Origin: an uncultured Opitutaceae bacterium
GTDB taxonomy: Bacteria; Verrucomicrobiota; Verrucomicrobiia; Opitutales; Opitutaceae
Reading direction: 5' to 3'
DNA length: 64,000 nt
Assembly (NCBI GenBank): GCA_937889545.1
Contig: CALAOT010000117.1
Coordinates: forward strand, 1-64,000
The position numbers and the translations under genes are program-made. This document shows, piece after piece, positions 18,515 to 58,979 of this stretch (position 1 is its first letter; each line of letters begins with the position of its first letter). The notes beneath the pieces are model-generated. The model ran no database searches. It saw only the letters and a program-made list of their open reading frames with translations, and was not told where the DNA came from.

Positions 18515-19231
18515 TCAGTCCGGCTTGCGGCCCGTCGCCGCGATCAGCTCGTTCGGCAGGTCGTGCACGCGCACGTCGGCGAATCCGGCCTTCCTCAGGT
18601 AGACGCCCAGCTCCTCGCGGGACGACGACATGCTCAGGTGGGCCGGGCGGCGCTCGAGGGGGTAGCGCGCGCTCTCCATAAAGACGTTCCAGCCGTGGTC
18701 CGAATCGAGCGAGAAGTTGTCGAAGTAGCACCGGCCGCCCGGGCGCAGGACGCGGAAGGCCTCCTCCACGTAGCGGAAGCGGTCCCACTCGAAGAGGTGC
18801 ATGAAGACGATCGTGCAGTACACCAGGTCGAAGGCGTCCCCCGGGAACTCCTGGAGGCCCACGGTGGCCAGCTCGACGAGCGTCGTGTTGGGGCGGTCCC
18901 TGAGCCGCGCGGCGGCGTGCCCGAGCATCCCGCCGGAGATGTCGGCCCCGAACCAGTGCAGGCACTCCTGGCTGAGGGGCTTGCCGACGCGGCCGATGCC
19001 GCAGCCGATCTCGAGGACGATGTCGTTCGGCCCGATGCCGACGGCGGGGCGGAGCATGTCGATGAACCCGCGCGCGGTGAGGTCGAGGGTCGCCTCGTCG
19101 GTGTGGCCCGCTACGGAGAGCCATGCCAGGTCCAGGTCCGTCGCCTGCCGGTCCCAGACCTTCTTGTACGAGGAGCGGTCCCCGAGCGAGGAGGCTGCGG
19201 CCTGCCAGCGCGCCTGGGCGTCGGAGCTCAT
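18515..19231 (-). CDS. Class I SAM-dependent methyltransferase, 238 aa
   Basis: Rossmann-fold methyltransferase with motif I VLEIGCGIGRVGKPL, then HWFGADISGGMLGHA (acidic residue of strand 2), and FDLVYCTIVFMHLFEWDRF followed by FRVLRPGGRCYFDNFSL. The C-terminal GFADVRVHDLPNELI closes the fold. The start is ATG 19231, which overlaps the stop of the coiled-coil gene by 4 nt. A longer reading frame exists upstream but lies inside that gene. It is the last gene of a coupled trio with the coiled-coil protein and the 1315-residue glycosyltransferase, and probably methylates the sugar or chain they make. Confidence 0.8.
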   Translation of the reverse strand: MSSDAQARWQAAASSLGDRSSYKKVWDRQATDLDLAWLSVAGHTDEATLDLTARGFIDMLRPAVGIGPNDIVLEIGCGIGRVGKPLSQECLHWFGADISGGMLGHAAARLRDRPNTTLVELATVGLQEFPGDAFDLVYCTIVFMHLFEWDRFRYVEEAFRVLRPGGRCYFDNFSLDSDHGWNVFMESARYPLERRPAHLSMSSSREELGVYLRKAGFADVRVHDLPNELIAATGRKPD

Positions 19232-19947
19232 GCGCGGCTCGGCTCGCACCAGATCGAGGTCCTCATGATCCAGAGCCACCCGGCCCCCTCGACCTGCGCC
19301 TCGAGGCTGAGCGAGTGCCGGCCCGGGGGCGTCTCAAACGTGATCTCGAAGCCGGGGAGCGGGTTCGCCGCCTGGGGTCCGAACCTCGCGATCACCTCGG
19401 GCTCCTCGAGCCCATGGCGGCCATTGAAGATGCGCCCGCCCAGGTTGACCCGGACCGCGGTTACGGCCCGCCCGTCCTGGGGCCACGCCCAGCCCCGCAG
19501 CGTGAATCGCGAGTCCCGGTATATCCGGAAAGGCGAGGTGTGCAGGTAGTAGTTGAAGACGCCGGGCTCGGCGGGGGCGCGCTCCACGGGGGCCGCGGGA
19601 GGCTGCGCCTCGAACCTGCGCCCGATTGCGCGAAGCGGCGCAAGGAGCCTCCAGGACCAGGATCGCCTGATCCGCCCGAGCTCCGCCTCCAGGGCCGCGG
19701 CCTTCTCCCCCTCGGCCTCGAGCATGCGGGTCAGCTCCTCCAGGTCCGCGAATGACTCCTGCTCGCGCTTGACGAGCGCGGCCCGTTCCTCGCGCAGGAC
19801 GTGGAGGTACGTGTTGCGCTCGCCGCGGTCGAGGAACTCGTGGACCATCTTCGCGCGAAACTCCGCCTCGCGCCGCTTCACGGCCTCGAGTTCGGCCTGG
19901 AGGGCGGCGATGCGCGGGCTGGGGTCGTCCGGGGCTGGGGTGTTCAT
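19228..19947 (-). CDS. Coiled-coil protein with glycosyltransferase-stalk-like beta domain, 239 aa
   Basis: No enzyme domain. Residues about 15-100 are strongly coiled-coil (heptad-rich IAALQAELEAVKRREAE, then FADLEELTRMLEAEGEKAA). A basic linker carries SWSWRLLAPLRAIGRRFE, and residues 125-239 form a beta domain beginning FNYYLHTSPFRIYRDSRF with LRGWAWPQDGRAV. Both the 'SWxLxAPLR' linker and the beta domain recur in the 1315-residue glycosyltransferase just upstream, so this looks like that protein's stalk without catalytic domains. Such proteins can act as chain-length rulers or scaffolds. Overlaps with both neighbours (ATGA) suggest one complex. Function is inferred only. Confidence 0.6.
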   Translation of the reverse strand: MNTPAPDDPSPRIAALQAELEAVKRREAEFRAKMVHEFLDRGERNTYLHVLREERAALVKREQESFADLEELTRMLEAEGEKAAALEAELGRIRRSWSWRLLAPLRAIGRRFEAQPPAAPVERAPAEPGVFNYYLHTSPFRIYRDSRFTLRGWAWPQDGRAVTAVRVNLGGRIFNGRHGLEEPEVIARFGPQAANPLPGFEITFETPPGRHSLSLEAQVEGAGWLWIMRTSIWCEPSRA

Positions 19948-22900
19948 GGGAGGTGGGCCGCCCACGACTTCGGCGCGCGGGAGAGGTACGCCGGCGAGAA
20001 GTCCTCCCCGACGAGCGTGAGGTTGGGGTTGTAGGCGGGGTCGGCCATGAGGAGCGCTCCCCAGGTGTTCATCATGTAGTCGATCTCGGCCTGGAAGCGC
20101 GCCTTCTTTTCAGCGGTGTCCTCCACGCCGCGCGTGGCCGACTCGTGGTGGTAGAACTCCGCGTACGGCGTCCAGACGTTGCGGTAGCCCGCGTGGATCA
20201 GCTTGCAGCAGAGGTCGACGTCGTTGAAGGCGATCTGCAGGTCCCTCTCGTTGAAGCCGCCGACCTCCAGGAACCGGTCCTTGCGGATGACGAGGCACGC
20301 CCCCGTGACCGCGCTGTAGTTCTGGACGAGGCGCAGCCGGTTCATCTGGCCCTGGTCGCCCCGGGGGAACTCCTTAAACGGGTGCCCGGCGACGCCGCCC
20401 AGGCCCAGGATGACCCCGGCGTGCTGCACGGTGTTGAGCGGGTAGTAGAGCATGGCGCCGACGGCCCCGATCCCGGGGAGGGCGGCGTGGCTCACCATCT
20501 CGGCGAGCCAGCCCGGCGCGATCGCCTCCACGTCGTTGTTGAGGAACCCGATGACCTCGCCGTGTGCCTCGCGCACGGCGCGGTTGTTGAGCGCCGAGTA
20601 GTTGAAGGGCTCGGGGAAGGGCAGGACGCGCAGCCGCGGGTCGGCGCCCCGGCCGATTTCCTTGAGGTAGGCCATCGTCTCCGGGTCGTCCGACTGGTTG
20701 TCGACGATGATGATCTCCAGGTTGGGGTAATCGGTCGCGGTCAGGATGCTCGCGACCGCCTGGCGCAGGAGCTTTAGCCCATTGCGGGTCGGGATGATGA
20801 GCGAGACGAGCGGCGCCGGCGACGGGAGCGGATACTTCACCCGCCAGTGGTCGCCCGGCACCGGCAGCAGCTCCACGGTCTCGCCCATGCGCCTGAAATG
20901 GTCCTCGAGGGCCATGCGGGCCGCCTCGATGGGGTAGGTCTTCTCGGCTAGCTGGAGCGCGGTCGAGCCCGGGGCGGCCCTCCAGTGGTACAGCAGCTTC
21001 GGGATGTGCCGGATGGCGGAGGCCGGGATCTTCTCGACTGCGCGAAGGACCAAGTCCCAGTCCTGGCTCCCCTCGTAGCCCTTCCTGAATCCCCCCAGGG
21101 AGCGGATGAGGTCGGCCCGGTAGACCGAGAGGTGGGAGGTGTAGTTCTGGCCGTGGTTCAGCTCGGGATTCCAGTCGGGCTTGAAATACGGGTCGAACCG
21201 GCGGTCCTCCATGTCGACCTTGTCCTCGTCCGTGTAGATCAGCTGGGCGTCCGGGTGCGCGTCGATCTCGGCCGCGACCTCGTACAGCGCCATCGGCGAG
21301 AGCACGTCGTCGTGGTCGAAGAACGCGACGAATTCCCCGGCCGCGAGGCCGAGCGCGGTGTTCGTCGCCTCGCAGATGTGGCCGTTCTCCTGCCGGTAGG
21401 CCACCTTGATCCGCGGGTTCTTCGATGCAAGGCCCTCCAGGGCCGCGCGCACGTGGGGCTCGGTCGAGGCGTCGTCGGCCACGCAGAGCTCCCAGTTCGG
21501 GTAGACCTGGTCCTCTACGGACTGGACGGCCTTGGCGAGGAGGGCCTCCGGCGTGTTGTACACCGGCATCACGACGGAGATCAGGGGCCGCGACCGGAAG
21601 GCCTCGATGTGCCTGCGGATGGCCGGCAGGTCTTCGTCCCCGAGGGTCTCGTGCTGCTGGCACCATTTCTCGTACTCGCTCGTTTCCGCGGGGTCGCCGG
21701 CCTTTCCGACGTGCACCATCGTCTGGAAGAGGGGGTTCCAGCGGTCCCCGTGCCGGACCTCGATGACGAGCGGGTGGTCGCCCAGGTGCGTGCGGACGTC
21801 GAGCTTGATGCCGCAGTACTCGGCCTGCTTCATCCCGGTCGAGGCGAGGACGTCGAGGCGCTTCGACCCGTAGATCCCCTCGACCGTCTGGCCCGCGAAA
21901 TGGGCCCGGATGCCCAGGATCGGGACCGCGGAATTCTCATAGCACCAGCCGAGGATGAGGAGCTTGTTCGAGGCGGTGCTCCACGTCCTCGGGTGGTCGA
22001 TGTTGAAGGTGTAGTGGTAGGCCGGCGGCGCGGCCCCGGCCTGCGGGGCGCCCGGGGCGGGCGGAGGGGAAGCCTTCGGCTCCTCCTGCTTCGCGGGCGC
22101 CGGGGCGGGCTGGGGCTTCGACTTGAGCCGCCGGATGAATCTCTCGACGTCCCGCATCGGCGCGGCGAGCTTCCAGGAGGCGGACCGGAAGATTGCCTTC
22201 AGGCGCTCCTCGCGCGCCTTGAGCTCCGCGTCCATCTCAAGGATCCGGGCGACGAGCCTCGTGTGCTCGGCGGACGCCGCGGCGCCGGCGGCTGCCGCCG
22301 CGGCGACTTCGGCGGCGGCCCTCTCGGTCTGGGTGCGGGCGACCTTCTCGATTCCGATTATCCGGGCCTCCAGGTTCTGTATATGCCGGTCGGATAATTT
22401 CTTGTGAAGCTTCAGGTGGCGGTCCTGCGATTCGATCTTTTCCTCGAGGTTGCGCGCATGCTGGTTCGTCAGGTCCCTCTGCAACTCCAGGTGGCGCACC
22501 TTCTCCTCCAGGCGCAGCCGCACGCGGTCCCTCTCCTCCGTCGCGCGCGATCCCCTCTCGTCCTCAATCCTCACGATGGCGGCCAGGTCGGCCGCGAGCG
22601 CCGGCAGATCATCCGCTCGGCCGCCGCCCCCGATGCCGGGCTGAAGCGCCTCGGCCAGTTCGCTGATCGCGGCGGTGAGGTCGGACCCGCGCGAGTTCCG
22701 GATGATCTCCCAGCACGGCCGCGGCGGCCTCGCAACGACCTCGTCGTAGGTCTTGAGCAGGGCCGCCGTGTTGGCGGCCAGGTCGAAATGCTTCCGCGCG
22801 AACGCGGCGCCGTTCTTTCCGAGGCTCGCCCCGAGGGAGGCGTCCTTGAATATCCGCTCGCAGCAGTCAGCGATGTCGTCGGGGGTTCCGCTTGACAGGA

Positions 22901-23891
22901 ATAGGGCCTCGACCCCGTCGCGCATCCCGAGCGCGACATTTGTCGGGGGAAGCACGACCGGCCGGCCCGACGCCAGGAACTCGGGCAGCTTGGAAGGAAG
23001 CCGGTAGTCGTTGAAGGGCCCGGGCCTGCCCGGCTGGACGAGCGCGTCGGCGAGGACGAGCAGCTTCGGGAGCCTTGCCTTCGCGATGAAGCCCAGGTCC
23101 AGCACGTGGGCCTTGAGGTCGGGCGAGAGGCCCTCGAGGAATTCCGGCCTGTTGAAACCCGTGCGGACAAGCCGGGTCGGGATCCCCCTCTGGTTGAGGA
23201 GCCTGATGGCCACGTACAGCTCCCGCATCTCCGGCTCGTTCGCGAAGGTGTTGCTTCCCGTGAAGACGATGAGCTTCTCGTTCTCCGGGAGCCCGAGCTC
23301 CCTGCGCAGCCCCGGGTCCGCGCCGTGGGGCCTGAGGTAGTCCGGGTCCACGCCCGGCTGGAGCACGGAGCAGGGCACGGTGGGGGGGACGAGTTCCTTC
23401 AGGCGGCCGACGATCACGGTCGCGGCGTCCGCCAGCCGCAGGAAGGTCCTGTGGCGCACCGGGTGGGGGAGGCTTTCGGACACGATCGAATCGAGCTCCT
23501 CAAACCCCATCGACCGGAGCTCGCCGATCGAACGCCGGGCATATCCCGAAATCAGGTTCTCCTCGTTGTCCTCGAGGTGGACGATCAGCCTGGCCGCCCG
23601 CCTGGCCGCCTTCTGGTAGGCGACGACGAACTTGCGGACGCACTCCCGGGGCGTCCAGGCGTGGATCACGTCCGCCGTGCCGCGGTCGGGGAAGATCGCC
23701 GGCTGCTCTAGGGCCTCCTCGTAGATCGCGGCGATGAAGACCGGATTTTGCGTCGCCGAGAGGGTGTCCTTCCCGAAGGGCACGGCCACGACGCAGGCGT
23801 GGCCCCGCGCGCACAGCGTGTTCGCGAAACCGCCAATGTGGTTCAGGCTATTGGTGGTGAAATCGCCGTAGTTTACGAAAAGGATGTTCAC
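19944..23891 (-). CDS. Triple-domain glycosyltransferase: GT4-like, coiled coil, stalk domain, two GT2 domains, 1315 aa
   Basis: A very large cytoplasmic multienzyme. Residues 1-400 form a GT-B/GT4-like unit (start NILFVNYGDFTTNSLNHIG; donor half with DYRLPSKLPEFLASGRPVV). Residues about 437-580 are coiled-coil, ending in SASWKLAAPMRD. Residues about 620-730 are a beta 'stalk' domain (HYTFNIDHPRTW). Two GT2 units follow: SVVMPVYNTPEALL with YTDEDKVDMED (about 770-990), then VSLIIPTRNGLKLL with FLNNDVEAIAPGWL (about 1030-1290). The layout suggests a polymerase that adds two or three residues per cycle, with length set by the coiled coil. GTG 23891 is the start. It is coupled to the coiled-coil gene downstream. 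Confidence 0.82.
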   Translation of the reverse strand: MNILFVNYGDFTTNSLNHIGGFANTLCARGHACVVAVPFGKDTLSATQNPVFIAAIYEEALEQPAIFPDRGTADVIHAWTPRECVRKFVVAYQKAARRAARLIVHLEDNEENLISGYARRSIGELRSMGFEELDSIVSESLPHPVRHRTFLRLADAATVIVGRLKELVPPTVPCSVLQPGVDPDYLRPHGADPGLRRELGLPENEKLIVFTGSNTFANEPEMRELYVAIRLLNQRGIPTRLVRTGFNRPEFLEGLSPDLKAHVLDLGFIAKARLPKLLVLADALVQPGRPGPFNDYRLPSKLPEFLASGRPVVLPPTNVALGMRDGVEALFLSSGTPDDIADCCERIFKDASLGASLGKNGAAFARKHFDLAANTAALLKTYDEVVARPPRPCWEIIRNSRGSDLTAAISELAEALQPGIGGGGRADDLPALAADLAAIVRIEDERGSRATEERDRVRLRLEEKVRHLELQRDLTNQHARNLEEKIESQDRHLKLHKKLSDRHIQNLEARIIGIEKVARTQTERAAAEVAAAAAAGAAASAEHTRLVARILEMDAELKAREERLKAIFRSASWKLAAPMRDVERFIRRLKSKPQPAPAPAKQEEPKASPPPAPGAPQAGAAPPAYHYTFNIDHPRTWSTASNKLLILGWCYENSAVPILGIRAHFAGQTVEGIYGSKRLDVLASTGMKQAEYCGIKLDVRTHLGDHPLVIEVRHGDRWNPLFQTMVHVGKAGDPAETSEYEKWCQQHETLGDEDLPAIRRHIEAFRSRPLISVVMPVYNTPEALLAKAVQSVEDQVYPNWELCVADDASTEPHVRAALEGLASKNPRIKVAYRQENGHICEATNTALGLAAGEFVAFFDHDDVLSPMALYEVAAEIDAHPDAQLIYTDEDKVDMEDRRFDPYFKPDWNPELNHGQNYTSHLSVYRADLIRSLGGFRKGYEGSQDWDLVLRAVEKIPASAIRHIPKLLYHWRAAPGSTALQLAEKTYPIEAARMALEDHFRRMGETVELLPVPGDHWRVKYPLPSPAPLVSLIIPTRNGLKLLRQAVASILTATDYPNLEIIIVDNQSDDPETMAYLKEIGRGADPRLRVLPFPEPFNYSALNNRAVREAHGEVIGFLNNDVEAIAPGWLAEMVSHAALPGIGAVGAMLYYPLNTVQHAGVILGLGGVAGHPFKEFPRGDQGQMNRLRLVQNYSAVTGACLVIRKDRFLEVGGFNERDLQIAFNDVDLCCKLIHAGYRNVWTPYAEFYHHESATRGVEDTAEKKARFQAEIDYMMNTWGALLMADPAYNPNLTLVGEDFSPAYLSRAPKSWAAHLP

Positions 23892-46109: not shown

Positions 46110-47205
46110 TCAGTCGAAGTCGATGTTCACTACGCGGTAGGAGCGGATCCGCATGTCGGGTGCCGCCAGCGGGAAGCTCTCGTCGGTCGAGAGCACCGCG
46201 TCCGTGTCACGGGTCCTGGACAGGGGGATCCGGATCCGCTCGGTGCGCTCCAGGCCAAGGGTCCGCTCCTTCTCGGAACTGCCGTCCTGTGACACCCCGA
46301 GGGAGATGTCCCACTTGGACGGGAAGCGGACCACCTCGACAATAGCCTCCTTGAACCTCTTCGTGGGCGGGAAGCGGAATTCCAGGCGCTTGTCGACCCA
46401 TCCGTCGGTGTCCGCACCGCTGATGCCGAAGAGGTATCCCGACCTGTGCCATCCCCGCGCGAGGAGATCAGTCCGGCCCAGGTTCTCGAAGGAGATGTTC
46501 TTCAGGGCGAAGGAGCGCATCCTCCCGTCGCCGGGTAGCGCGAAGACGTCGGAGGAGTCGAGGCGCACGAGCCTCTGGCCGCCCGGGGGAAGGGGCACGT
46601 AGACGCTCTCGTACGTCTGGCGGGGGACGGAGTCCGCCTGCACGACCTTGCCGTCTACTGACACCTTGATCGTATTCGAGGCGATCGACGCCCAGCCGGG
46701 CATCTCGAGGTCGAGCCTCAAGACCTTGAAATCCTGGAAGGACGGGGCCTTGAATTCGGCCGACTTGGCGATCCAGCCGTCGGGGTCAACCCCCGCCAGC
46801 TCGAACTTCTCGCCGTAGTCGTTGGCAATGTTGCGGAAGCTCGTGAAATCCGGGATGTCGTTGATCGAGATCTCGTCCACGAACGCCGAGACCGCGCGCT
46901 TGTCCTGGTCGTTGTCGTAGACCTGCGCATCCGAGAAATGCAGCGAGATGGAGGTGATGTCGGAGGATTCCTTGATGAGGCGCGTGAGCGTGAACCGGCC
47001 CGCCTTCAGCTTCACCATCTCGGTCGGGCGCTCATTGATCGAGATCGTCGCGTCCACGCCGTCGCGCCGGAACCGGGGCGTGTCGGGGATGAATCCCTTG
47101 AAATAGAGCACCTGCCCGGCGTGGGAGGCGCCCAGCTTGAAATACGCGTCCTGGCCGGTCCAGCCGTCCTCGTAGATCCCCGAATACTCCAGCCCCTTGT
47201 ACTCG
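46110..47205 (-). repeat. Three tandem 'DGW' beta modules
   Basis: Approximate module positions on the minus strand: 47205-46855, 46812-46480 and 46450-46110. Each starts with a GxxxDGW turn, has a strand with alternating charged and hydrophobic residues, and closes with an acidic strand (DEISIND, LKNISFEN, RVVNIDFD). Sequence identity is low, so these are diverged duplications. The family differs from the LamG-like modules at 31-41 kb. Confidence 0.6.
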
Positions 47206-49763
47206 AGAAGGTCCCGGGGGAACTTGGAGATCTTCGTGGGCCGCAGCATCGCGCGGTACTCCTCGTCGGTCAGGACGGATATGTCGCGCGTGAAGCCGAT
47301 GAGCCGCCGGTCGTCGAGGGCGAACTTGATGCCGTACCAGCGCATGAGCCCTGTCTTGGGCTTGTCGATCACCCTGGCCATGTCGCCAAAGTCGATCGTG
47401 ATGTAGGCCTGCCCCTCGTAGTACTCGGGCGTGACGACCGGCGAGACGACCCGCGCCGAGCCGCCCCCGACGAACGGGAGTCGGTAGTCCTCGTCGCCGA
47501 CGACGATCGCCTTCTCGGGCAGCATGGTTCGGCCGACGCCGAGCGACGTGCGCGAGAAGTCCACGATGACCCTCAGGCCCGGGGAGGGGTTAACGATGTG
47601 GAACACGTTGTACCGGCCGGTGCCGTGGAACGAGGAGGTGCCGTGAGAGACCGGCTCCGTCTCCCTCTGGAAGAACGCGGCCTTGAAGCGGGCCGACGAG
47701 TAATAGTGCGGGCTCAGCTCGGAATGCACGAAGACCAGGCGGTTCCTGACCTGGCTCTCGAGCTTGTACTGGTACATGTTCTGCAGAGTCCAGCCCGTGC
47801 CGGGATTCAGCTTGTTGAAGTGGTCCAGGTCGGTCCTGGTCGAGACGAACAGGCGGTCGTCGTACCTGAGGTGCCTCGAGCTCGTCTCGGTCCAGTTGTT
47901 GGCGTAGAGGACGCTGTCGGCCTCCTTGTGGATCGTGGCGACGCGGTAGTCCGGGATGTCGCCCGACAGGATCTCCTCGGGCAGCATGAAGCGCAGGAGC
48001 GAGAGCTTCTCGACGAGGCGGGCCTGCGGCCCGAGGTCGGGGTCCTCCGTGCGCAGGAACTTGAGCACGGCGATGTTGGCGATGTTGTCCATGTAGCTCC
48101 TGGACAGGAACCGCGTGTCGATGCCCCTCGTGTACTGCGAGAGCATCTTGGCGCTCACCACGTTCGAGATGTCGCTCTCGATCCCGCTGTACCTGATGTT
48201 CTTGGGCGGCGTGAAGCCCACGCCGAGCGCGGAGCCCTTCACGATTTCAGTGAGGCCGCCGCCGTAGGTGCCGAGCGAGGCGATCGTGTAGTAGAAGAAC
48301 GAGGCGGTGGTGCCGACAAAGAAGACGGCGATTGCGATCCGGGCCCTTCTCCTGACCGGTGCGCTGGGCGCGAAAAGAAAATGGGCGAATCCCTGGGCGA
48401 GGCACAGCGTGGTGATGGGCTGCGCATACATCGCCAGCTTGAACAGCCCGAAATCCTGCCCCTTTTGGAACAGATAGATGCCGAGGAGGATCGCGACGAC
48501 GCCGAGATAGCCGACGGGAGCCCCCTTGAGCAGGTTCCTCCAGGTGCGCCAGGCGAAAAAGAGCAGGAAGGCGACGCCGACCACGATCTGGGCCGATATC
48601 CACGGATCGACGCCCACGATGCCGAACGGGTGCAGGCCGAAGAGCATCGGGATGAAGGAGGGCACGAGCGTCCAGGGGAAGAGGACAAGCCCGCCGCTCT
48701 GGTCGTTGATCTCCGCCATGGCGCCGAGGCCCGCGGAGCCCACCGACTGCATGACGAGCGTGTTGACGAACTCGTAGGTGTTGCTGGCGATGAGGAGGAA
48801 CGTCAGCGCCGCCACTCCCGCGATGAAGAGGAGATAGGGCCGGAAGCGGGCCGGCTCCGTGTAGTGCACCCGCATCGCCACGAGCAGGATGCCGAGCGCC
48901 ACGAACGGCGAGACCTCCGGATAGAAGATCGCGAGGCTCGCCGTGAGGAGCCCCCCGACCGCCCCGATCCGCACCGAGATCCGGCGGGGCAGGAAAAGAA
49001 CCGAGGCGATCACCAGCAGAAGGGCGATGCCCCCGACCTGCGCGATCAGCTGGTAGAGCGTCCCCAACCCGAAGAGCGGGCTCGTCGCAAACAGGAAGAA
49101 CGCGACCAGCGCGATCCGGCGGTACCGCCCCCTCCAGATCGCGATCGTCCCCATGGCGAAGAGCTGCATCAGGCTGAGAAGGAGGATCGCCGGCATGAAC
49201 ACCTCGTGGGCGCGGCGGCCGGTGAGCGAGGCGATCCACGCGATCGTCATCTCCGAGCCGGGCCGGATCTGCTGGAGCGCATGCATGAACCAGTAGTGCT
49301 GCGTGTAATCGCGGCCCTGCAGCTCGGTCTGGAGGGGGATGGCGTAGTAGCCGTGCTCCAGGAACCGCTCGGCCGCCAGGACGTAGTTGGCCATGTCGTC
49401 GTTCGCGTAGGAGATCCAGTTGAACCCGTAGCGGAGCGAGGGCCAGCCCACGTAGAGGAGGTAGCCGGCCCCGATGCCAAGGAAGGGGATCAGCTTGCGC
49501 AACGGCAGCAGGGGCCGGCGCCAGGCGAGCACGGCGGCGGCCCCGGCGAGGAGCGCGAGCGTGGTCCACGGTCCCGCGGTCCTGACCGGGATCCCCCAGA
49601 CATTGAGCCGGGTGATGATCACGATCAGGAGCGACAGGCCCAGCGTCGGCGCCGCGAACCAGCTCCAGAGCACGCCCAGGCGGGGCCTGAAGAGGCTCAC
49701 CACGGCCTGCCCGATGACGGAGAGGTAGGCGTAGAGGACTGCGACGAGGAGCAGGGCGATCAT
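46110..49763 (-). CDS. Giant membrane protein with three C-terminal 'DGW' beta modules, 1217 aa
   Basis: Residues 1-540 hold about twelve helices. The first luminal loop contains NWISYANDDMANYVLAAERF, an acidic ANDD motif where GT-C enzymes place their catalytic residue. From about 560 on the protein is periplasmic. Three tandem modules, each opening with a GxxxDGW motif (GIYEDGWTGQDAYF, GVDPDGWIAKSAEF, GADTDGWVDKRLEF), fill residues about 855-1217. They should bind or scaffold glycan. It is followed 25 nt later by the ArnC-like GT2, a plausible donor-making partner. ATG 49763. Confidence 0.65.
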   Translation of the reverse strand: MIALLLVAVLYAYLSVIGQAVVSLFRPRLGVLWSWFAAPTLGLSLLIVIITRLNVWGIPVRTAGPWTTLALLAGAAAVLAWRRPLLPLRKLIPFLGIGAGYLLYVGWPSLRYGFNWISYANDDMANYVLAAERFLEHGYYAIPLQTELQGRDYTQHYWFMHALQQIRPGSEMTIAWIASLTGRRAHEVFMPAILLLSLMQLFAMGTIAIWRGRYRRIALVAFFLFATSPLFGLGTLYQLIAQVGGIALLLVIASVLFLPRRISVRIGAVGGLLTASLAIFYPEVSPFVALGILLVAMRVHYTEPARFRPYLLFIAGVAALTFLLIASNTYEFVNTLVMQSVGSAGLGAMAEINDQSGGLVLFPWTLVPSFIPMLFGLHPFGIVGVDPWISAQIVVGVAFLLFFAWRTWRNLLKGAPVGYLGVVAILLGIYLFQKGQDFGLFKLAMYAQPITTLCLAQGFAHFLFAPSAPVRRRARIAIAVFFVGTTASFFYYTIASLGTYGGGLTEIVKGSALGVGFTPPKNIRYSGIESDISNVVSAKMLSQYTRGIDTRFLSRSYMDNIANIAVLKFLRTEDPDLGPQARLVEKLSLLRFMLPEEILSGDIPDYRVATIHKEADSVLYANNWTETSSRHLRYDDRLFVSTRTDLDHFNKLNPGTGWTLQNMYQYKLESQVRNRLVFVHSELSPHYYSSARFKAAFFQRETEPVSHGTSSFHGTGRYNVFHIVNPSPGLRVIVDFSRTSLGVGRTMLPEKAIVVGDEDYRLPFVGGGSARVVSPVVTPEYYEGQAYITIDFGDMARVIDKPKTGLMRWYGIKFALDDRRLIGFTRDISVLTDEEYRAMLRPTKISKFPRDLLEYKGLEYSGIYEDGWTGQDAYFKLGASHAGQVLYFKGFIPDTPRFRRDGVDATISINERPTEMVKLKAGRFTLTRLIKESSDITSISLHFSDAQVYDNDQDKRAVSAFVDEISINDIPDFTSFRNIANDYGEKFELAGVDPDGWIAKSAEFKAPSFQDFKVLRLDLEMPGWASIASNTIKVSVDGKVVQADSVPRQTYESVYVPLPPGGQRLVRLDSSDVFALPGDGRMRSFALKNISFENLGRTDLLARGWHRSGYLFGISGADTDGWVDKRLEFRFPPTKRFKEAIVEVVRFPSKWDISLGVSQDGSSEKERTLGLERTERIRIPLSRTRDTDAVLSTDESFPLAAPDMRIRSYRVVNIDFD

Positions 49764-49813: not shown

Positions 49814-52786
49814 CTACCAGCGGATCCCGGCCGCGTGCAGCCTCGCGGTTAAGGCGCCCCGGAACCGTATCCTGCGCGCCTGGCTCTCGATGTTCGCGGC
49901 GCTGTCCTTCTCGGCCCCGTGAAAGCGCGAGCGTATGCGGGACATCTCCTGCGCCCCGGTCGTGTGGATCACCTGGCTGGTCTTCTGCTGGGCGTGGACG
50001 CGGAAGCAGCCGAGAAAGTAGGGCAGCCGGACGATCCTGCAGCCGGCCTGGCGGAACCGCGCGAGGAGGTCCCAGTCGAGGGCGAACTGGAAGGTCGGGT
50101 CGATGCCCCCTGCGAGGTCCCATGCGCGCTTCCTCCAGAAGAGGGTCTCCTGCGGCACGTAGTCGATCCACTCGATCGAGTCCCGCTCGTGGCGGGGCAT
50201 GATCCAGCGGCCGATCTCGCGGTCGGCGTCGTTGATGATGATCCGGTGGCCGTAGACCGCATCCACGCGCGGATGCGACGCGAAGTAGGAGGCGACGAAC
50301 CTCAGGGCCCTGGGCGCCACCAGGTCGTCCGAGTTGAACCACGCCATGACGTCGTCCGGGCTGAGGTCGGGCTCGACATGGGCGAACGCCTTCCGGATGG
50401 CGTCCGCCTGGCCCTTGTCGGGCTCGGATGCCCAGTGCCGCAGCTTCGGGGCATACCGGGCGATAATCCCCGCGCTCGCGTCGTGCGAGGCGCCGTCCTG
50501 GATGACGTAGAGGAGCTTCGGGTAATCCTGGTTCAGGATGCTCACGATCGTGCTCTCGAGGAACGCGGGCTGCTCGAAGCTGGGGGTCACGATCGCCATC
50601 TTCGGAAGGGCATGGTCCGCAACCCCGGGCCTGGGGAGCCTGCGGTCCCACTCGATGGGGCGGGGTTCGTACTGCCTGAGGACGCCGATCTGCATCCAGT
50701 AGTCCTCGACGACCTTCCTGAAGATCCAGCGGTCGACGGGACGCCAGAGCTTCTCGCGGACCCCCAGCTTCAGGGCGATCCAGAGCTTGCGCAGGGTCGC
50801 CGTCGCGGCCGTCGCCTCGGCGGCCATCTGGTTGATCACCGCCTCCCGCTCGACGCAGGCGCGGTTAAGCTCCTGGATCACCGCCTCCTTTTCCGAGAGG
50901 AGCCGGCCGTAGTGCCTCGCCTGCTCGGTGTTCGCGTGGCCGGACGCGTAGTTTGCGATCTCCTGCTTGAGCGCCAGGATCTCCCCGTCCTGGTTCCTCA
51001 TGGCAGTCTCGATGTTGCCGATGTGGACATCCTTGTCGTGGATGACCTGCGCCCACAGCGCCGCGTCGGGCGGGAGCTTTCCAAGGAGCTCTAGCCGGGC
51101 CGCGAGGGCCTCGCGCTCAGCCTCGATCCTGGCCACCCGGCGCTCCCACTCGGGCACCGCCGCGATGTGCGCCTTCAGGCCCGCGTCGAGCCGGACGACG
51201 ATCCTCTCGCGTTCGTCGCACGTCTCCTTGAGGGCCGCGATCTCCCCATCCTTGGTGTCGGCCTCTTTCTTAAGCTCGGCGATCTCGGTGTCCTTGTCGG
51301 CGCACTCCTGCTCGAGCTCGGCCTTGATGGCCTCCATCTCGGTCTTGCGCTCCTCAGCGGCGCGCTTGAGGTCCTCGATCTCCACGTCCTTGGAATTGGT
51401 CTCGACCTTAAGCTCGGCGATCTCGGTGTCCTTGTCGGCGCATTCCTGCTCGAGCTCGGCCTTGATGGCCTCCATCTCGGTCTTGCGCTCCTCCGCGGCG
51501 CGCTTGAGCGCCTCTATCTCGACGTCCTTGGAGTCGGTCTCGTCCTTGAGCTCCTCGATCTTGTGCTGGCGGTCCACGCGGTCGCGCTTGAGCGCGATGA
51601 TCCCGGGGGTCGACGCGGAGATGAGCTTCAGGGCCTCCGGCGGCAGCGCGCGGGATTCCACGACGGCGTCGACCGGCTGGTCGGCCGCAGCCAAGGCCCG
51701 CCTTATGCCCTCGATGACATCGGAGGCCGGGATCGTCTTCACGCAGGGACCGTCGCCGAAGTGGCAGTCCCAGTTGCAGCCGAAGCAGGGCAGGGGCTGG
51801 ACCACGGAGACGCCCTGCCGGGCCGAGGGCTTGAAGCGGGGCCAGTGGCCTCCGCCGAATATCCCGACCACCGGCCGGCCGGCCGCGCCCGCCATGTGCA
51901 TGGCGCCCGTGTCGTGCCCCACGTACAGCCCGGAATCCTTGAGGAGGGCCGCGAGGAGCGGCAGCTCGCCATCCTTCCCGAGCCACGCCCCGGGCCGGGA
52001 GCCGCCCGATCCCGCCACCCCCGAGGCGACGGCCTCGATTCCGGAGGCCTCGTCCGCGTGGGCGAGGAGGAGCACGGGCATCTTCCTCGCCTGCAGCCAC
52101 GAGACCACCTCGGCAAATCCCTTGGCGTGCCAGGACTTCACGGGAACGTTCGCGAGCCCGCCCGGGAACACCGCCGCCCACTTGCCCTCGGCGAGCCCGT
52201 GGCTGGCGGCGATCGCGCGCGCCCTTGCCGACAGGTCCTTCGAAATCTCGATTGACGGGAGGACCTTCGGAAGGCCGCGGCCGATCACCTTCTCCGCGAA
52301 ACGGTGCTGGCTCTCGACGTCGCCGGCGGCCTTGTCCGCGGCCACCGTTTCCCTGAATGAGCTGGCGGGATCGACGCCGAGATCGAGCCTTAGCGACGCG
52401 GCAAAGATCGGGTCCACATCGGCCCCGCCGAGGACGACGCTCCGGACCTTCCCGAAATGCGCCGCGACGGCGATCTCGAGCCAGGTGCGGTTGAGCGTCG
52501 GGGCAAGGATAAGCTCCGGCTTCAGCGCAGCCAGGTCGCCCAGCAGCGCCGCCAGCTCCGCGCGGCATTCCGAGGGCCTCTGCTTGAAGGGATTGAGCCG
52601 GGCCACCTTCCACTCAAGGGCCCCGGGAAATAGCGGCGCCAGGCTTTCGTAACCGTGCCTAACGACAATGACATGGCGAGCCTTCGGCCATTCGGCGATG
52701 AACTGGCCCAGCGCCGGGGTGAACAGGATCAGGTCGCCGATCGTGTCGGGGCGCAGGTAAACGATGGTCTTGGGCTGGGCGGGCAC
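49814..52786 (-). CDS. GT9-like heptosyltransferase fused through a coiled coil to a GT2 domain, 990 aa
   Basis: Residues about 1-375 are a GT-B heptosyltransferase-like unit: IVYLRPDTIGDLILFTPALG, VFPGGLANVPVKSWHAKGF, and VGHDTGAMHMAGAAGRPVVG. Residues about 405-648 are a long coiled coil with an exact 46-residue internal repeat. Residues about 730-960 are a GT2 unit (MAIVTPSFEQPAFLESTIV, WFNSDDLVAPRALR). The GT9 half fits a locus that makes GDP-heptose, although GT9 enzymes normally use ADP-heptose. GTG 52786 is the start. It lies 49 nt after the methyltransferase. Confidence 0.82.
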   Translation of the reverse strand: MPAQPKTIVYLRPDTIGDLILFTPALGQFIAEWPKARHVIVVRHGYESLAPLFPGALEWKVARLNPFKQRPSECRAELAALLGDLAALKPELILAPTLNRTWLEIAVAAHFGKVRSVVLGGADVDPIFAASLRLDLGVDPASSFRETVAADKAAGDVESQHRFAEKVIGRGLPKVLPSIEISKDLSARARAIAASHGLAEGKWAAVFPGGLANVPVKSWHAKGFAEVVSWLQARKMPVLLLAHADEASGIEAVASGVAGSGGSRPGAWLGKDGELPLLAALLKDSGLYVGHDTGAMHMAGAAGRPVVGIFGGGHWPRFKPSARQGVSVVQPLPCFGCNWDCHFGDGPCVKTIPASDVIEGIRRALAAADQPVDAVVESRALPPEALKLISASTPGIIALKRDRVDRQHKIEELKDETDSKDVEIEALKRAAEERKTEMEAIKAELEQECADKDTEIAELKVETNSKDVEIEDLKRAAEERKTEMEAIKAELEQECADKDTEIAELKKEADTKDGEIAALKETCDERERIVVRLDAGLKAHIAAVPEWERRVARIEAEREALAARLELLGKLPPDAALWAQVIHDKDVHIGNIETAMRNQDGEILALKQEIANYASGHANTEQARHYGRLLSEKEAVIQELNRACVEREAVINQMAAEATAATATLRKLWIALKLGVREKLWRPVDRWIFRKVVEDYWMQIGVLRQYEPRPIEWDRRLPRPGVADHALPKMAIVTPSFEQPAFLESTIVSILNQDYPKLLYVIQDGASHDASAGIIARYAPKLRHWASEPDKGQADAIRKAFAHVEPDLSPDDVMAWFNSDDLVAPRALRFVASYFASHPRVDAVYGHRIIINDADREIGRWIMPRHERDSIEWIDYVPQETLFWRKRAWDLAGGIDPTFQFALDWDLLARFRQAGCRIVRLPYFLGCFRVHAQQKTSQVIHTTGAQEMSRIRSRFHGAEKDSAANIESQARRIRFRGALTARLHAAGIRW
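51272..51547 (-). repeat. Tandem 138-bp repeat in the coiled-coil region
   Basis: Two near-identical copies, 51272-51409 and 51410-51547, in frame, 46 codons each. They encode AEERKTEMEAIKAELEQECA followed by DKDTEIAELK. The copies differ at only a few bases, so the duplication is recent or kept uniform. Confidence 0.9.
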
Positions 52787-52835: not shown

Positions 52836-53759
52836 CTAGGGGTGCGGCGGCGGGGGGTTGAGCTTCGCCTCCAGGCGCTGCATCGCCCACCAGCGGTCGG
52901 CGGATTCACGGGCCTTGTCGAGGAGCGCCTGGACGAGGCGCCCGACGGGCGCCTTGGAAAGGGAGGCCGCCGCAGAAGCCTCGTCGTTGGGCTTCAACGG
53001 GGACCGTCCCGCGACGAATGACATGTCGTAGGAATAGACCGGGCTCGAGAAATCGAGATGGGGAAACCCGAGCCTTGAAAAAAACACCCCGGCCGAGCGC
53101 CTGCTGAAAAGGTACAGGTGCTCCTCGTTGTTCCGGTCCATGTGCTTCAGGAAAAGGTCGTTCTTGGCCCGCAGGTCCGCGTAGCTCAGGTGCTCGATGT
53201 ACTCGGGAGTCTGGATGACGAAGAACCCGTCCTTGGACAGGAGCCCGGCGCAGTGGCCCATCGTCCTCACGGGGTTCGGCAGGTGCTCGATCACATCGTT
53301 TAAGACAATCACGTCGAAGCTTCCCGCCTTGAAATCTTGGCTTTCGACATCCCCGGTGAGGACCTTGATCCCGAAGGTCTCATGGGCAAAGCGCGACATC
53401 CAGGGGCTTATCTCCGTGCCCGTTGCCTCGAATCCGGCCCAGCCGAGGAGGGCGACGTAGCCCCCGTGGGCGCAGCCCACCTCGAGGACGCGGGCGGGAG
53501 GCAGCCGGAACTCGAGGAGGCGCCGGAGCCAGTGGGTGCACCGCTCGGGCAGGTCGAGCCGCGCGCGGTCCCGGATATCGGGCAGCCCGTGGTGTCCGGT
53601 CTGGCGCTCGGTCCAGTACTCCCGGCTGTAGAGCCCCTCGACCGGCAAGGCGCTGCTCACCAATGTCCCGCACGCCCGGCATACCCTGTAGTCGTCGGAG
53701 TAGGACTCCAGCTGCGGATGGCCGCACCAGCAGGCCCGTTCGGCGGGTTTGTCGCTCAT
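52836..53759 (-). CDS. SAM-dependent methyltransferase with N-terminal zinc-ribbon-like motif, 307 aa
   Basis: The N-terminus carries four cysteines, C10, C12, C27 and C30 (CWCG and CRAC), like a small zinc ribbon. A class I methyltransferase follows: VLEVGCAHGGYVALLGWAGF, ATGTEISPWMSRFAHETFG, FDVIVLNDVIEHLPNPVRTM. The zinc-ribbon plus methyltransferase layout resembles sugar C-methyltransferases and chain-terminating methylases next to ABC exporters. Since the Wzt-like ATPase lies directly upstream, a terminal-cap methyltransferase that is read by the Wzt C-terminal domain is plausible, but unproven. ATG 53759. Confidence 0.83.
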   Translation of the reverse strand: MSDKPAERACWCGHPQLESYSDDYRVCRACGTLVSSALPVEGLYSREYWTERQTGHHGLPDIRDRARLDLPERCTHWLRRLLEFRLPPARVLEVGCAHGGYVALLGWAGFEATGTEISPWMSRFAHETFGIKVLTGDVESQDFKAGSFDVIVLNDVIEHLPNPVRTMGHCAGLLSKDGFFVIQTPEYIEHLSYADLRAKNDLFLKHMDRNNEEHLYLFSRRSAGVFFSRLGFPHLDFSSPVYSYDMSFVAGRSPLKPNDEASAAASLSKAPVGRLVQALLDKARESADRWWAMQRLEAKLNPPPPHP

Positions 53760-53761
53760 TG

Positions 53762-55105
53762 CTAGAGATAGCTGATGTCCATCGGCAGCTGGGCGATGCC
53801 GTAGAAGGGCAGGGCGCCCGAGCCGAAGTTTCCCACGTTGAGCGGCCCGAGGCCGCCGATCCTGTCGTAGAAAGCGCCCACGTTGGGATTGTCCTCGTCA
53901 AATTCGGCGGCATCGAGCGACAGCGTGTAGGCGCCGGGCTGGAGGGAGAGAGCTATCCTGAACTCCAGCAATATCTCCTCGCCCTTGGACAGGGCCGGCA
54001 GCGGAAAGCGCAGCTGGGGCGTCCCCGCGGCAAAGACCAAGTTGCCCATCCTGTCGTGGAGCTGGATCCCGGCCGACGGCCTCTTGATTTCGGCGTTCGC
54101 CCTGAGGTGCATCCGGACGGCCGCGCGGTGCATCATCTCGAAATCCCAGGTCGCCGCGCCGTGCCCGTCGACCACCACGGCGGCCGCGATCTCAAGGGCC
54201 TTGTCCCCGTGCCGCGACTTCGCCGTGGAAAGGATGTCGCCCGACCGGACGGAATTGAGCACCGCCGGATTCACGGGGGGGTGCTTCCCCGCGACGGACT
54301 GGCCCGACTTCATCGAGACCTTGTGCAGGTTGAAGTACCTGCTGACGCAGTCCTCCGGGACCCCGTCGAACATGAGGCTCCCCTGGTTGAGGAGGAGCGC
54401 CCGGTCACAGAGCGACTGGACGGCCCCCATGTCATGGGAGACGAAGATGAGCGTGGCGCCGCGGTGGACGATCTCGCGGATCCGCTGGAAGCATTTCTGG
54501 GAGAAGAAGACGTCGCCGACGGCGAGCGCCTCGTCGATGATCAGCACGTCCGGCTGGACGTTCACGGCGACCGCGAAGGCGAGCCTCATCATCATGCCCG
54601 AGGAGTACGTCTTGACCGGCTGGTCGATGAATTCGCCTATGTCGGCGAAAGCGGTCACCTCGTCCATCCGCGTGTCCATCTCGGCGTGGGTGAACCCGTA
54701 GATCGCGCCGTTGAGGAACACATTCTCCCTCCCGGTGAAGTCCGGGTTGAAGCCGCTTCCGAGCTCGAGGAGCGCCGAAATACGGCCGCTGGTCCTCACG
54801 GAGCCGGCCGTCGGCATCAGCGTACCGGCGATCAGCTGGAGGAGCGTGCTCTTGCCCGAACCATTGCGCCCGATGATTCCCGTTGCCTCGCCGCGGCGGA
54901 TGCAGAAGCTCACGTCGCGCAGGGCGTAGAAATCGCGGAACCTGCTGGAGGCATGGCGCGCCAGCGCGCGGCGCGCAGAGGACCCCTTCGGCAGCAGCGC
55001 CGATGCGGCCTCAAGGAACGGCACGGTGAGGCGCGAGGACGGGCTCTCCCAGATCCTGTAGGCCTTGGTGAGGCCGCCGACCTCGATTAGGGGTTCGCTG
55101 GACAT
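53762..55105 (-). CDS. ABC transporter ATPase with C-terminal glycan-binding domain (Wzt/TagH type), 447 aa
   Basis: Residues about 1-260 are an ABC ATPase: Walker A GRNGSGKST (about 78-86), signature TYSSGMMMRLAFA, Walker B VLIIDEALAVGD and SHDMGAVQSL. Residues about 285-447 are a beta domain (LQPGAYTLSLDAAEFDEDN near the end), as in Wzt proteins that recognise the finished O-antigen before export. ATG 55105 is chosen; a longer frame reaches to 55138. It starts 16 nt after the permease stop. Product recognition by the C-terminal domain is known for the family and likely here. Confidence 0.93.
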   Translation of the reverse strand: MSSEPLIEVGGLTKAYRIWESPSSRLTVPFLEAASALLPKGSSARRALARHASSRFRDFYALRDVSFCIRRGEATGIIGRNGSGKSTLLQLIAGTLMPTAGSVRTSGRISALLELGSGFNPDFTGRENVFLNGAIYGFTHAEMDTRMDEVTAFADIGEFIDQPVKTYSSGMMMRLAFAVAVNVQPDVLIIDEALAVGDVFFSQKCFQRIREIVHRGATLIFVSHDMGAVQSLCDRALLLNQGSLMFDGVPEDCVSRYFNLHKVSMKSGQSVAGKHPPVNPAVLNSVRSGDILSTAKSRHGDKALEIAAAVVVDGHGAATWDFEMMHRAAVRMHLRANAEIKRPSAGIQLHDRMGNLVFAAGTPQLRFPLPALSKGEEILLEFRIALSLQPGAYTLSLDAAEFDEDNPNVGAFYDRIGGLGPLNVGNFGSGALPFYGIAQLPMDISYL

Positions 55106-55121
55106 GGTTGGGAGGTGCCCC

Positions 55122-55940
55122 TTAGACCACGTCGGCAAAGGCCGGCCGGAGCCTCATAAACACCCAGCGGCCGGCAAGGAGTACGGCAAGTCCCGCGGCG
55201 TACGTGTAGCCTAGGTGCATTGCGTTGACGGGCATGCCCCAGAGCACCACTTCGCGGGCCAGCACCACGGTCTGGAGGAAGGGGTTCCACTTGAGGATCG
55301 CCCACAGGTTGGCGGGAATCCGGCTGACCGGAAAAAAGACCGCGCTCGAATACAGCACGATCTGCGCGAAAAAAGGCATCACCTGGGCGAGATCGCGGTA
55401 GAAGACGCCGAGTGCCGCAAAGAGCCATGCGAGTCCCGCGGTAAGCATGAGAAGGGGAATCAGGATGACCGGCAGCCATGCGAGGCCCGCCAGGCTGAGG
55501 CCGCTCCCGAAGATCAACGCGCCGCCGAGCGCAAGGACAAGACCGATGGCCAGGTTGAACCACAGGCCCCCGGAATGCGACAGGGGCAGTATCTCAAGGG
55601 GGAAGACGACCTTCTTCACGAGACTGGTGTTCCCGACGATGAGGAGCGGCGACGTCCCCAGGATGTCCGCGACCAGCATGTAGAGGGTCAGCCCCAGGAA
55701 CATGACCATGGCGAAGTCCGTCTCGGTTTCCACCTTGGGGTCGCGGAAATGACCTTTGAAGATCTGTCCAAAGACGACGTAGTAGATGCCAAGCATCAGC
55801 ACGGGGTTGAGCACGGCCCAGATGATGCCGAGGTAGCTGCCGCGGTAGCGGGATTCAACGGCCCTAACGGTGAACTGCCACCAGAGATCGCGTTTCCGGG
55901 CAATGCCTGAGAAGGGCGAGGCTGTTGCTGGGGCGCTCAT
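55122..55940 (-). CDS. ABC-2 polysaccharide export permease (Wzm/TagG type), 272 aa
   Basis: Six helices, amphipathic N-terminal stretch (LWWQFTVRAVESRYRGSYLG), then YYVVFGQIFKGHF and a late SSAVFFPVSRIPANLW, all standard for O-antigen or teichoic-acid exporters. The length fits. It is the first gene of a pair with the Wzt-like ATPase. ATG 55940. It sits immediately beside a lower-GC stretch that starts at 55941. Confidence 0.94.
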   Translation of the reverse strand: MSAPATASPFSGIARKRDLWWQFTVRAVESRYRGSYLGIIWAVLNPVLMLGIYYVVFGQIFKGHFRDPKVETETDFAMVMFLGLTLYMLVADILGTSPLLIVGNTSLVKKVVFPLEILPLSHSGGLWFNLAIGLVLALGGALIFGSGLSLAGLAWLPVILIPLLMLTAGLAWLFAALGVFYRDLAQVMPFFAQIVLYSSAVFFPVSRIPANLWAILKWNPFLQTVVLAREVVLWGMPVNAMHLGYTYAAGLAVLLAGRWVFMRLRPAFADVV

Positions 55941-58720: not shown

Positions 58721-58979
58721 AGGCACACAGGCATCAACGACGTACAGCCATAAGTCTCATATGTACGTACGAACAGCGCCGGCGAGGGCAAATCGATATT
58801 GTGGCATTCCGGGCTTCCATGGAGCGGCTTTGCGCATGTCGTTACGTTACCAGTTTCGGCCCAGGATGGCGCCGACATCGAACTTTAGGGCCGACGGGTT
58901 GTCGTAAGAAGAATGGTTAGCCTGCTGCCGGATCCGGCGGCCGCGCTCGGAATACGTCCTGCGGGGCAGGAGTGACACG
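58721..58979. other. 259-bp gap between two membrane-protein genes
   Basis: No gene is seen. It contains the hairpin TCCTGC-CCC-GCAGGA (about 58956-58970) and a 12-bp palindrome GCCGGATCCGGC (about 58927), which may end transcription from the gene at 58980-61196. TATGTACGTAC (about 58758) is another short palindrome. The promoter of the duplicated gene is likely in the left half. Confidence 0.35.

Follow-up and report, generated by a model that had tools for sequence, protein, structure and literature searches.

The model we propose concerns P0001, a protein of 1315 residues encoded in a 64-kb stretch of DNA (the window) from an Opitutaceae bacterium of the Verrucomicrobiota (genome G000, contig C117). 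It combines in one polypeptide a GT4-like glycosyltransferase (GT), a coiled coil, a beta domain of immunoglobulin/fibronectin type III (Ig/FnIII)-like fold and two GT2 units. We read P0001, with a probability of about 0.55, as a multi-enzyme belonging to a cluster for an ATP-binding cassette (ABC) transporter-dependent surface polysaccharide of the O-antigen type, constructed on the plan of WbbB and of the O7 protein ORF6 with a GT4 enzyme at the far end. The tandem GT2 pair, which is C-terminal and of the polymerase type, would extend the chain, while the coiled coil would oligomerise the protein and space its enzymes. The GT4 unit would act at a step of its own, by capping the end as happens in WbbB or by contributing one of the sugars of the repeat, and P0002, a small protein sharing the coiled-coil/beta module, would bring a methyltransferase into the complex. 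Should a rod set chain length at all, this would more likely be the task of P0003 together with P0005, both encoded in the Wzm/Wzt operon.

The layout announced by the original prediction, namely one GT4-like unit, two GT2 units, a coiled coil and a beta 'stalk', is recovered by Pfam, by a shuffle-tested coiled-coil scoring and by AlphaFold2. The gene starts with GTG inside an open frame of 1327 aa. In the distal unit, Glyco_trans_1_4 matches residues 206-350 with 37.5 bits (cut-off 27), and the profile of the unit matches solved GT4-like enzymes, for example 3c4q and 2jjm. Glycos_transf_2 matches two stretches of the protein, the best being 772-931 with 160.5 bits (cut-off 23.3); when profiles are compared with solved structures, this first GT2 unit matches the chondroitin synthase entries 2z86/2z87. 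The second GT2 unit is recognised by Glyco_tranf_2_3 at 1027-1253 (67.8 bits, cut-off 27). Among the 25 NCBIfam matches listed for P0001, none lies above its cut-off, and the same database gives no match for P0002. The coiled coil was scored by a COILS-style procedure against composition-preserving shuffles of the sequence. The peak of 1.81 found within residues 430-590 was reached by 0 of 400 shuffles, and the 83 residues over 1.4 by 6 of 400.

The 'stalk' is modelled by AlphaFold2 as a compact beta sandwich with a mean predicted local distance difference test (pLDDT) score of 91.4. VIA-align relates it to accessory beta domains of glucodextranase, sulfite dehydrogenase and S-layer proteins (Z up to 9.7), and Foldseek returns two matches at E<=0.001, both of them sulfite oxidase/dehydrogenase entries (best E 6e-4). 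An assignment to a specific known module was rejected, and we read these matches as a generic Ig/FnIII-like fold only. The comparison with Wzt_C by hhalign, in which the target was the C-terminus of the window's own Wzt as a single sequence, gave a probability of 0.6% and lends no support to a kinship of the 'stalk' with that carbohydrate-binding domain. Tandem arrays of the same domain, with up to 4 copies, are carried by other proteins (L060:6665-9457(+), L150 and L158), and it would seem to serve the polysaccharide enzymes of Opitutaceae as an accessory of general use.

The P0001-type fusion is real and common in Opitutaceae. With the GT4 unit as query, 127 of 200 family genomes respond at E<=1e-50, including 9 of the 11 genomes of the genus for the presence of this unit; a motif-plus-beta query retrieves 121 of the 200 at E<=0.01, in several architectures. 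The closest named locus, L062, comes from an Opitutaceae metagenome-assembled genome from palsa and is 75% identical over the whole length. The alignment of 18 orthologues reveals that the catalytic stretches of GT4 and GT2 are invariant, among them E304 and the RLPSK..E stretch of the GT4 unit, and that the sequence of the coiled coil is not conserved. Its span, linkers included, goes from 129 to 314 aa among the 18 orthologues and from 165 to 179 aa in the six closest loci of the same genus. An HxxNL motif recurs in these coils at spacings of 14, 18, 21, 25, 28, 32, 49 or 70 residues, all of which are 0 or 4 modulo 7 and thus fit length changes that preserve the register of continuous heptad/hendecad coils.

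An ABC-transporter-dependent setting finds its support in the cluster itself. What characterises such O-polysaccharide systems, a Wzm together with a Wzt bearing Wzt_C, is present with a second methyltransferase at 52836-55940, about 30 kb upstream of P0001. The link often extends to relatives: in all, 16 genomes (G000, G003, G013, G023, G025, G055, G064, G065, G066, G072, G074, G094, G125, G131, G162 and G199) combine a frame of 1200 aa or more with a Wzt_C match no further than 70 kb away on the same contig. This count comes from two genome listings read side by side; three genomes clearly have their Wzt_C elsewhere, and the others, with different or short contigs or unlisted positions, allow no decision. 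The cluster also contains RmlA (473 bits, cut-off 361), an RmlB- or Gmd-like gene, an RmlD-like gene, a GHMP gene which resembles heptose kinases (HddA model 163 bits, under its cut-off of 600) and SIS, HAD and transaldolase genes. Given these rhamnose- and heptose-type genes and the presence of Wzm/Wzt, the likely product is an ABC-exported glycan, probably containing rhamnose and perhaps heptose. In the segment 25418-31066(-), the neighbours of the transaldolase are genes of heptose type for SIS and HAD proteins, a nucleotidyltransferase and a GHMP kinase. MurU is the better-scoring model for the nucleotidyltransferase, with 109 bits against 66 for HddC; neither score attains the cut-off.

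The coupling of P0001, P0002 and the methyltransferase P0006 by 4-nt overlaps, which had been proposed from the window, is confirmed and retained in the genus. The P0001 stop and the P0002 start share the ATGA of 19944-19947, and the P0002 stop and the P0006 start that of 19228-19231. Among same-genus loci, ATGA, GTGA or TTGA forms the first overlap in 6/6, and ATGA or GTGA forms the second in 5/5 examined, this second count leaving out L046, whose contig ends inside the P0002 gene; L042 and L062 are the same contig, as are L046 and L071, and each pair was counted once. The order P0007-P0001-P0002-methyltransferase is found in the window, in L042-L045 and in L047. P0007 is retained upstream of P0001 beyond the genus. 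In L142 and L084, a natural fission has split GT4 and tandem GT2 between two adjacent genes, both of which encode a coiled coil (L146 is apparently the same contig as L084, judging by coordinates). In L142 a P0006-type methyltransferase comes after the two split genes (204 bits), an arrangement which supports a complex, and one made of P0001, P0002 and P0006 is plausible. Homologues of P0006 also come immediately after such glycosyltransferase genes in L065 and the Rhodospirillaceae locus L107 (52 bits each). Residues 1-100 of P0002 have a coiled-coil peak of 1.62, which 4 of 400 shuffles equal, and only 2 of the 400 match its 47 residues over 1.4. This coil is weaker than that of P0001, a run of 100 shuffles on residues 1-95 having attained a maximum of 1.81. 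AlphaFold2 draws P0002 as a single long helix (residues 10-100) followed by the strand order of the P0001 beta domain, with a mean pLDDT of 67.9 from 6 sequences. L011 was considered as a third copy in the genome and rejected as an unrelated protein with a coincidental coiled coil.

WbdA is a multi-module mannosyltransferase recruited by WbdD. A tandem GT2 pair is known from the RfbC-type proteins of Myxococcus, on which a literature search led only to an unrelated genome paper. The chondroitin synthase K4CP (PDB 2z86/2z87) resembles P0001 by its tandem GT2 pair and is not known to possess a coiled coil or a GT4 unit. The nearest published designs come from O-antigen synthesis. WbbB of Klebsiella pneumoniae O12, a single polypeptide of an ABC transporter pathway, unites termination, a coiled-coil ruler and a pair of polymerase GTs, its modules being GT99 (the distal beta-Kdo, or 3-deoxy-D-manno-oct-2-ulosonic acid, transferase), GT102 and GT103; ORF6 of K. 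pneumoniae O7 associates a methyltransferase-kinase, a coiled coil and two GT2 modules with an accessory domain called CBM; in both proteins the terminator occupies the distal tip of the coiled coil, and E. coli O9 and Klebsiella O12 are the systems for which the ruler model is established (PMC11231755). In WbdD of E. coli O9a, a methyltransferase-kinase followed by a coiled coil, the coil separates terminator from polymerase (PMC6286764, PMC11231755), and WsaE of the Geobacillus stearothermophilus S-layer glycan joins a methyltransferase and two GTs in a wzm/wzt cluster (PMC2943079).

P0001 shares with WbbB three GT modules, two of them C-terminal, and the coiled coil between these and the distal one. 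It differs by a distal unit that is GT4-like rather than GT99, an assignment made by Pfam and solved-structure matches with no direct comparison to GT99, and by C-terminal units which match Pfam GT2 rather than GT102/GT103, again with no direct comparison to those families. An extra Ig-like domain and the coupled pair of P0002 and methyltransferase also set it apart. The likeness to O7 ORF6, judged by layout alone, consists of a coiled coil followed by two C-terminal GT2 modules and of an accessory domain, whereas the distal enzyme of P0001 is a GT4 and its methyltransferase is encoded by a separate gene, P0006. The resemblance to WbdA/WbdD which the original prediction had evoked holds for the idea of a coiled coil between terminator and polymerase units and is otherwise loose: P0001 has no methyltransferase or kinase, and neither a kinase nor a coiled coil was detected in P0006 by the Pfam scan and the coiled-coil scoring, so that membership of either protein in the WbdD type was rejected for want of a kinase. 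WsaE is likewise a multi-enzyme fusion with two GTs in a wzm/wzt cluster, but it has no GT4, and the available text of its source mentions no coiled coil (PMC2943079). The contrast that had been drawn with known systems, 'but here ruler and polymerase are joined', must be abandoned, and with it the novelty of the joining, since WbbB and O7 ORF6 are published examples (PMC11231755) and WsaE is a further fusion (PMC2943079). As judged from its sequence, P0001 fits the published plan and matches the enzyme classes of none of WbbB, ORF6, WbdD and WsaE. A literature search combining Verrucomicrobia with O-antigen, Wzt, glycosyltransferase and coiled-coil terms brought no mention of Verrucomicrobia among the matches listed.

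The tandem-GT2 half has a wider distribution, which takes in Proteobacteria, Verrucomicrobiota, Acidobacteria and other groups. A coiled coil often precedes it, and the SW[RKQ]xTxPLR motif that ends the coil recurs in part of these relatives. Among 34 tandem-GT2 proteins of at least 900 aa without the GT4 unit, 32 were classified by their distal part (L078, cut by its contig, and L084, the split form, being left out): 11 carry a methyltransferase (three of these labels, L088, L115 and L138, being under the Pfam cut-off), 3 a sulfotransferase, 2 a PIG-L deacetylase with a GT2, 4 a GT2 and 2 tetratricopeptide repeats (TPR), and 10 are unrecognised. L128 was claimed by both a home-made methyltransferase profile and the Pfam sulfotransferase model, and the Pfam label was used. 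When the six labels are mapped on a tandem-GT2 tree of 85 sequences, 42 of which bear no label, at least 13 changes are needed over the 43 labelled rows, the minimum possible being 5. The distal enzymes of these proteins may cap the chain. The sulfotransferase-coiled coil-tandem GT2 proteins (L103:4708-8046, L136:8501-11734 and L128:7472-12502) suggest sulfate-ended glycans; the literature search on distal sulfotransferase/terminator fusions produced nothing relevant. Outside the GT4 group, a full Wzt is present in the fetched locus for 14 of 64 tandem-GT2 proteins, and at least 56 coiled-coil residues precede the GT2 pair in 7 of these 14 versus 9 of the 50 without Wzt.

Several observations weigh against the model proposed for P0001. 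The coiled coil is not essential to the pairing of GT4 with tandem GT2, because two relatives do without it: in L161 (1008 aa) GT4 is fused directly to tandem GT2 and no coiled coil is detected, and in L147 the two are separate genes, again with none. In three genomes the orthologue of P0001 is not close to a Wzt_C gene: the distance is 892 kb in G049 and 267 kb in G034, and in G007 the two are on different contigs. No full Wzt was found within the fetched 10-kb flanks of the GT4-unit loci, which places P0001 outside the export operon proper. The AlphaFold2 model of P0002 is of low confidence. Finally, the 10 unrecognised distal parts and the 2 TPR cases among the 32 tandem-GT2 proteins prevent the equation of distal part with capping enzyme from being general.

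The strongest alternative, which we consider possible at a little less than even odds, places the real ruler and terminator in P0003 and P0005 beside Wzt/Wzm and leaves to P0001 the supply of polymerase and side activities only. Indeed, the order Wzm-Wzt-methyltransferase-P0003-P0004 is retained in L162-L165 (P0004 of L165 runs off the contig end), and the coiled coil of P0003 contains a 46-aa unit, equal to five heptads plus one hendecad, which would keep the coil in register. This unit is present in two copies in P0003, L163, L164, L165 and L170. L162 has a single copy, and its coil region falls short of that of P0003 by exactly 46 aa. Over 117 nt the copies are 89-97% identical within a gene, whereas copies from different species average 82% and do not exceed 88%, as expected from exchange or duplication of the unit inside each lineage. 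Furthermore, in L153:3674-6148(+) a P0005-type methyltransferase right after Wzm-Wzt is fused to about 350 coiled-coil residues, by analogy a WbdD-like plan in Opitutaceae. Against this stand the lack of a kinase in P0005 and the composition of the Wzt loci: the fused P0003 type is found in 9 of 20, a split GT9-coiled coil in 2, and neither in 9, fractions which describe 20 loci (L162-L181) hand-picked from the family-genome matches with the same genus first and not a random sample. We also know of no precedent for a GT9 enzyme as terminator. The sequences nevertheless make P0003 with P0005 the first suspect, likelier than P0001, if any rod sets chain length here. A protein of 1217 aa with multiple membrane spans and no Pfam match, at 46110-49763(-), is conserved after P0003 in the Wzm/Wzt block.

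According to a second alternative, possible although the odds lean against it, the coiled coil would be an oligomerisation scaffold which concentrates the three GTs, and no rod would control length. Both halves of the split versions in L142 and L084 retain a coiled coil, and certain ABC-exported O-antigens have no terminal cap, their length being set by the stoichiometry of enzyme and exporter (PMC6286764). Such a scaffold, however, leaves unexplained the one-unit length change in P0003 and the recurrence of distal modifying enzymes. The reading of the original prediction, a chain-length-control complex of P0001, P0002 and P0006 with the P0001 coil as ruler and the methyltransferase or GT4 as terminator, is unlikely: it can invoke a layout equal to that of WbbB and O7 ORF6 with the terminator at the far end (PMC11231755), a gene coupling conserved in the genus and coil spans that vary among orthologues at register-preserving spacings, but the span hardly varies in the six closest loci, L161 and L147 have no coil, and the Wzm/Wzt operon itself encodes a second GT-coiled coil-GT protein, P0003.

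The model retained for P0001 describes, as it stands, a conserved enzyme of known design and no new principle. A broader proposal, rather doubtful at present, would see in the tandem-GT2/coiled-coil unit a phylum-spanning chassis repeatedly fitted with different end-acting enzymes (methyltransferase, sulfotransferase, deacetylase, GT4, GT2), with module exchange driving the evolution of chain length as well as of the chemistry of the cap, and would see in the Opitutaceae P0003 rod, which varies in 46-residue quanta, natural length variants of a ruler. If the rods do measure length, the swapped distal enzymes and the gained or lost rod units would offer natural variants for testing the ruler model in another phylum, and the end groups (sulfate, methyl) of uncharacterised polysaccharides could be guessed from sequence.

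Table 1. Positions in the window of P0001, its units and the genes discussed with it.
Feature	Position	Strand	Basis
P0001: GT4 / coiled coil / Ig-like beta domain / GT2 / GT2, 1315 aa	19944..23891	-	Pfam and orthologue alignment
GT4-like unit of P0001, residues 1-390, distal to polymerase pair	22722..23891	-	Pfam, solved-structure matches
Coiled coil of P0001, about residues 430-590, ending in a motif of type S-W-K/R-x-T-x-P-L-R	22122..22604	-	
Ig/FnIII-like beta domain ('stalk') of P0001, about residues 624-740	21672..22022	-	AlphaFold2
GT2 unit a of P0001, residues 772-931, DHDD motif	21099..21578	-	Pfam
GT2 unit b of P0001, residues 1027-1253, NND motif	20133..20813	-	Pfam, alignment
P0002: stand-alone coiled coil and same beta domain as P0001, 239 aa	19228..19947	-	
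P0006: class I methyltransferase, 238 aa, start overlapping P0002 stop by ATGA	18515..19231	-	Pfam
P0007: signal-peptide-like start, no Pfam domain, upstream neighbour of P0001	23917..25350	-	
P0003: GT9 / long coiled coil / GT2, 990 aa	49814..52786	-	
In-frame 138-nt (46-aa) tandem repeat in P0003 coiled coil	51227..51561	-	
P0005: methyltransferase adjoining Wzt	52836..53759	-	
Wzt: ABC ATPase with Wzt_C carbohydrate-binding domain	53762..55138	-	
Wzm: ABC-2 membrane protein	55122..55940	-	

In the same window, the membrane protein encoded by the open reading frame 56051-58726(-) has no Pfam match and no homologue in the 24 loci searched; at 57800-58718 its gene contains a direct duplication of 459 nt (93% match), which gives rise to a repeat of 153 aa in the protein.

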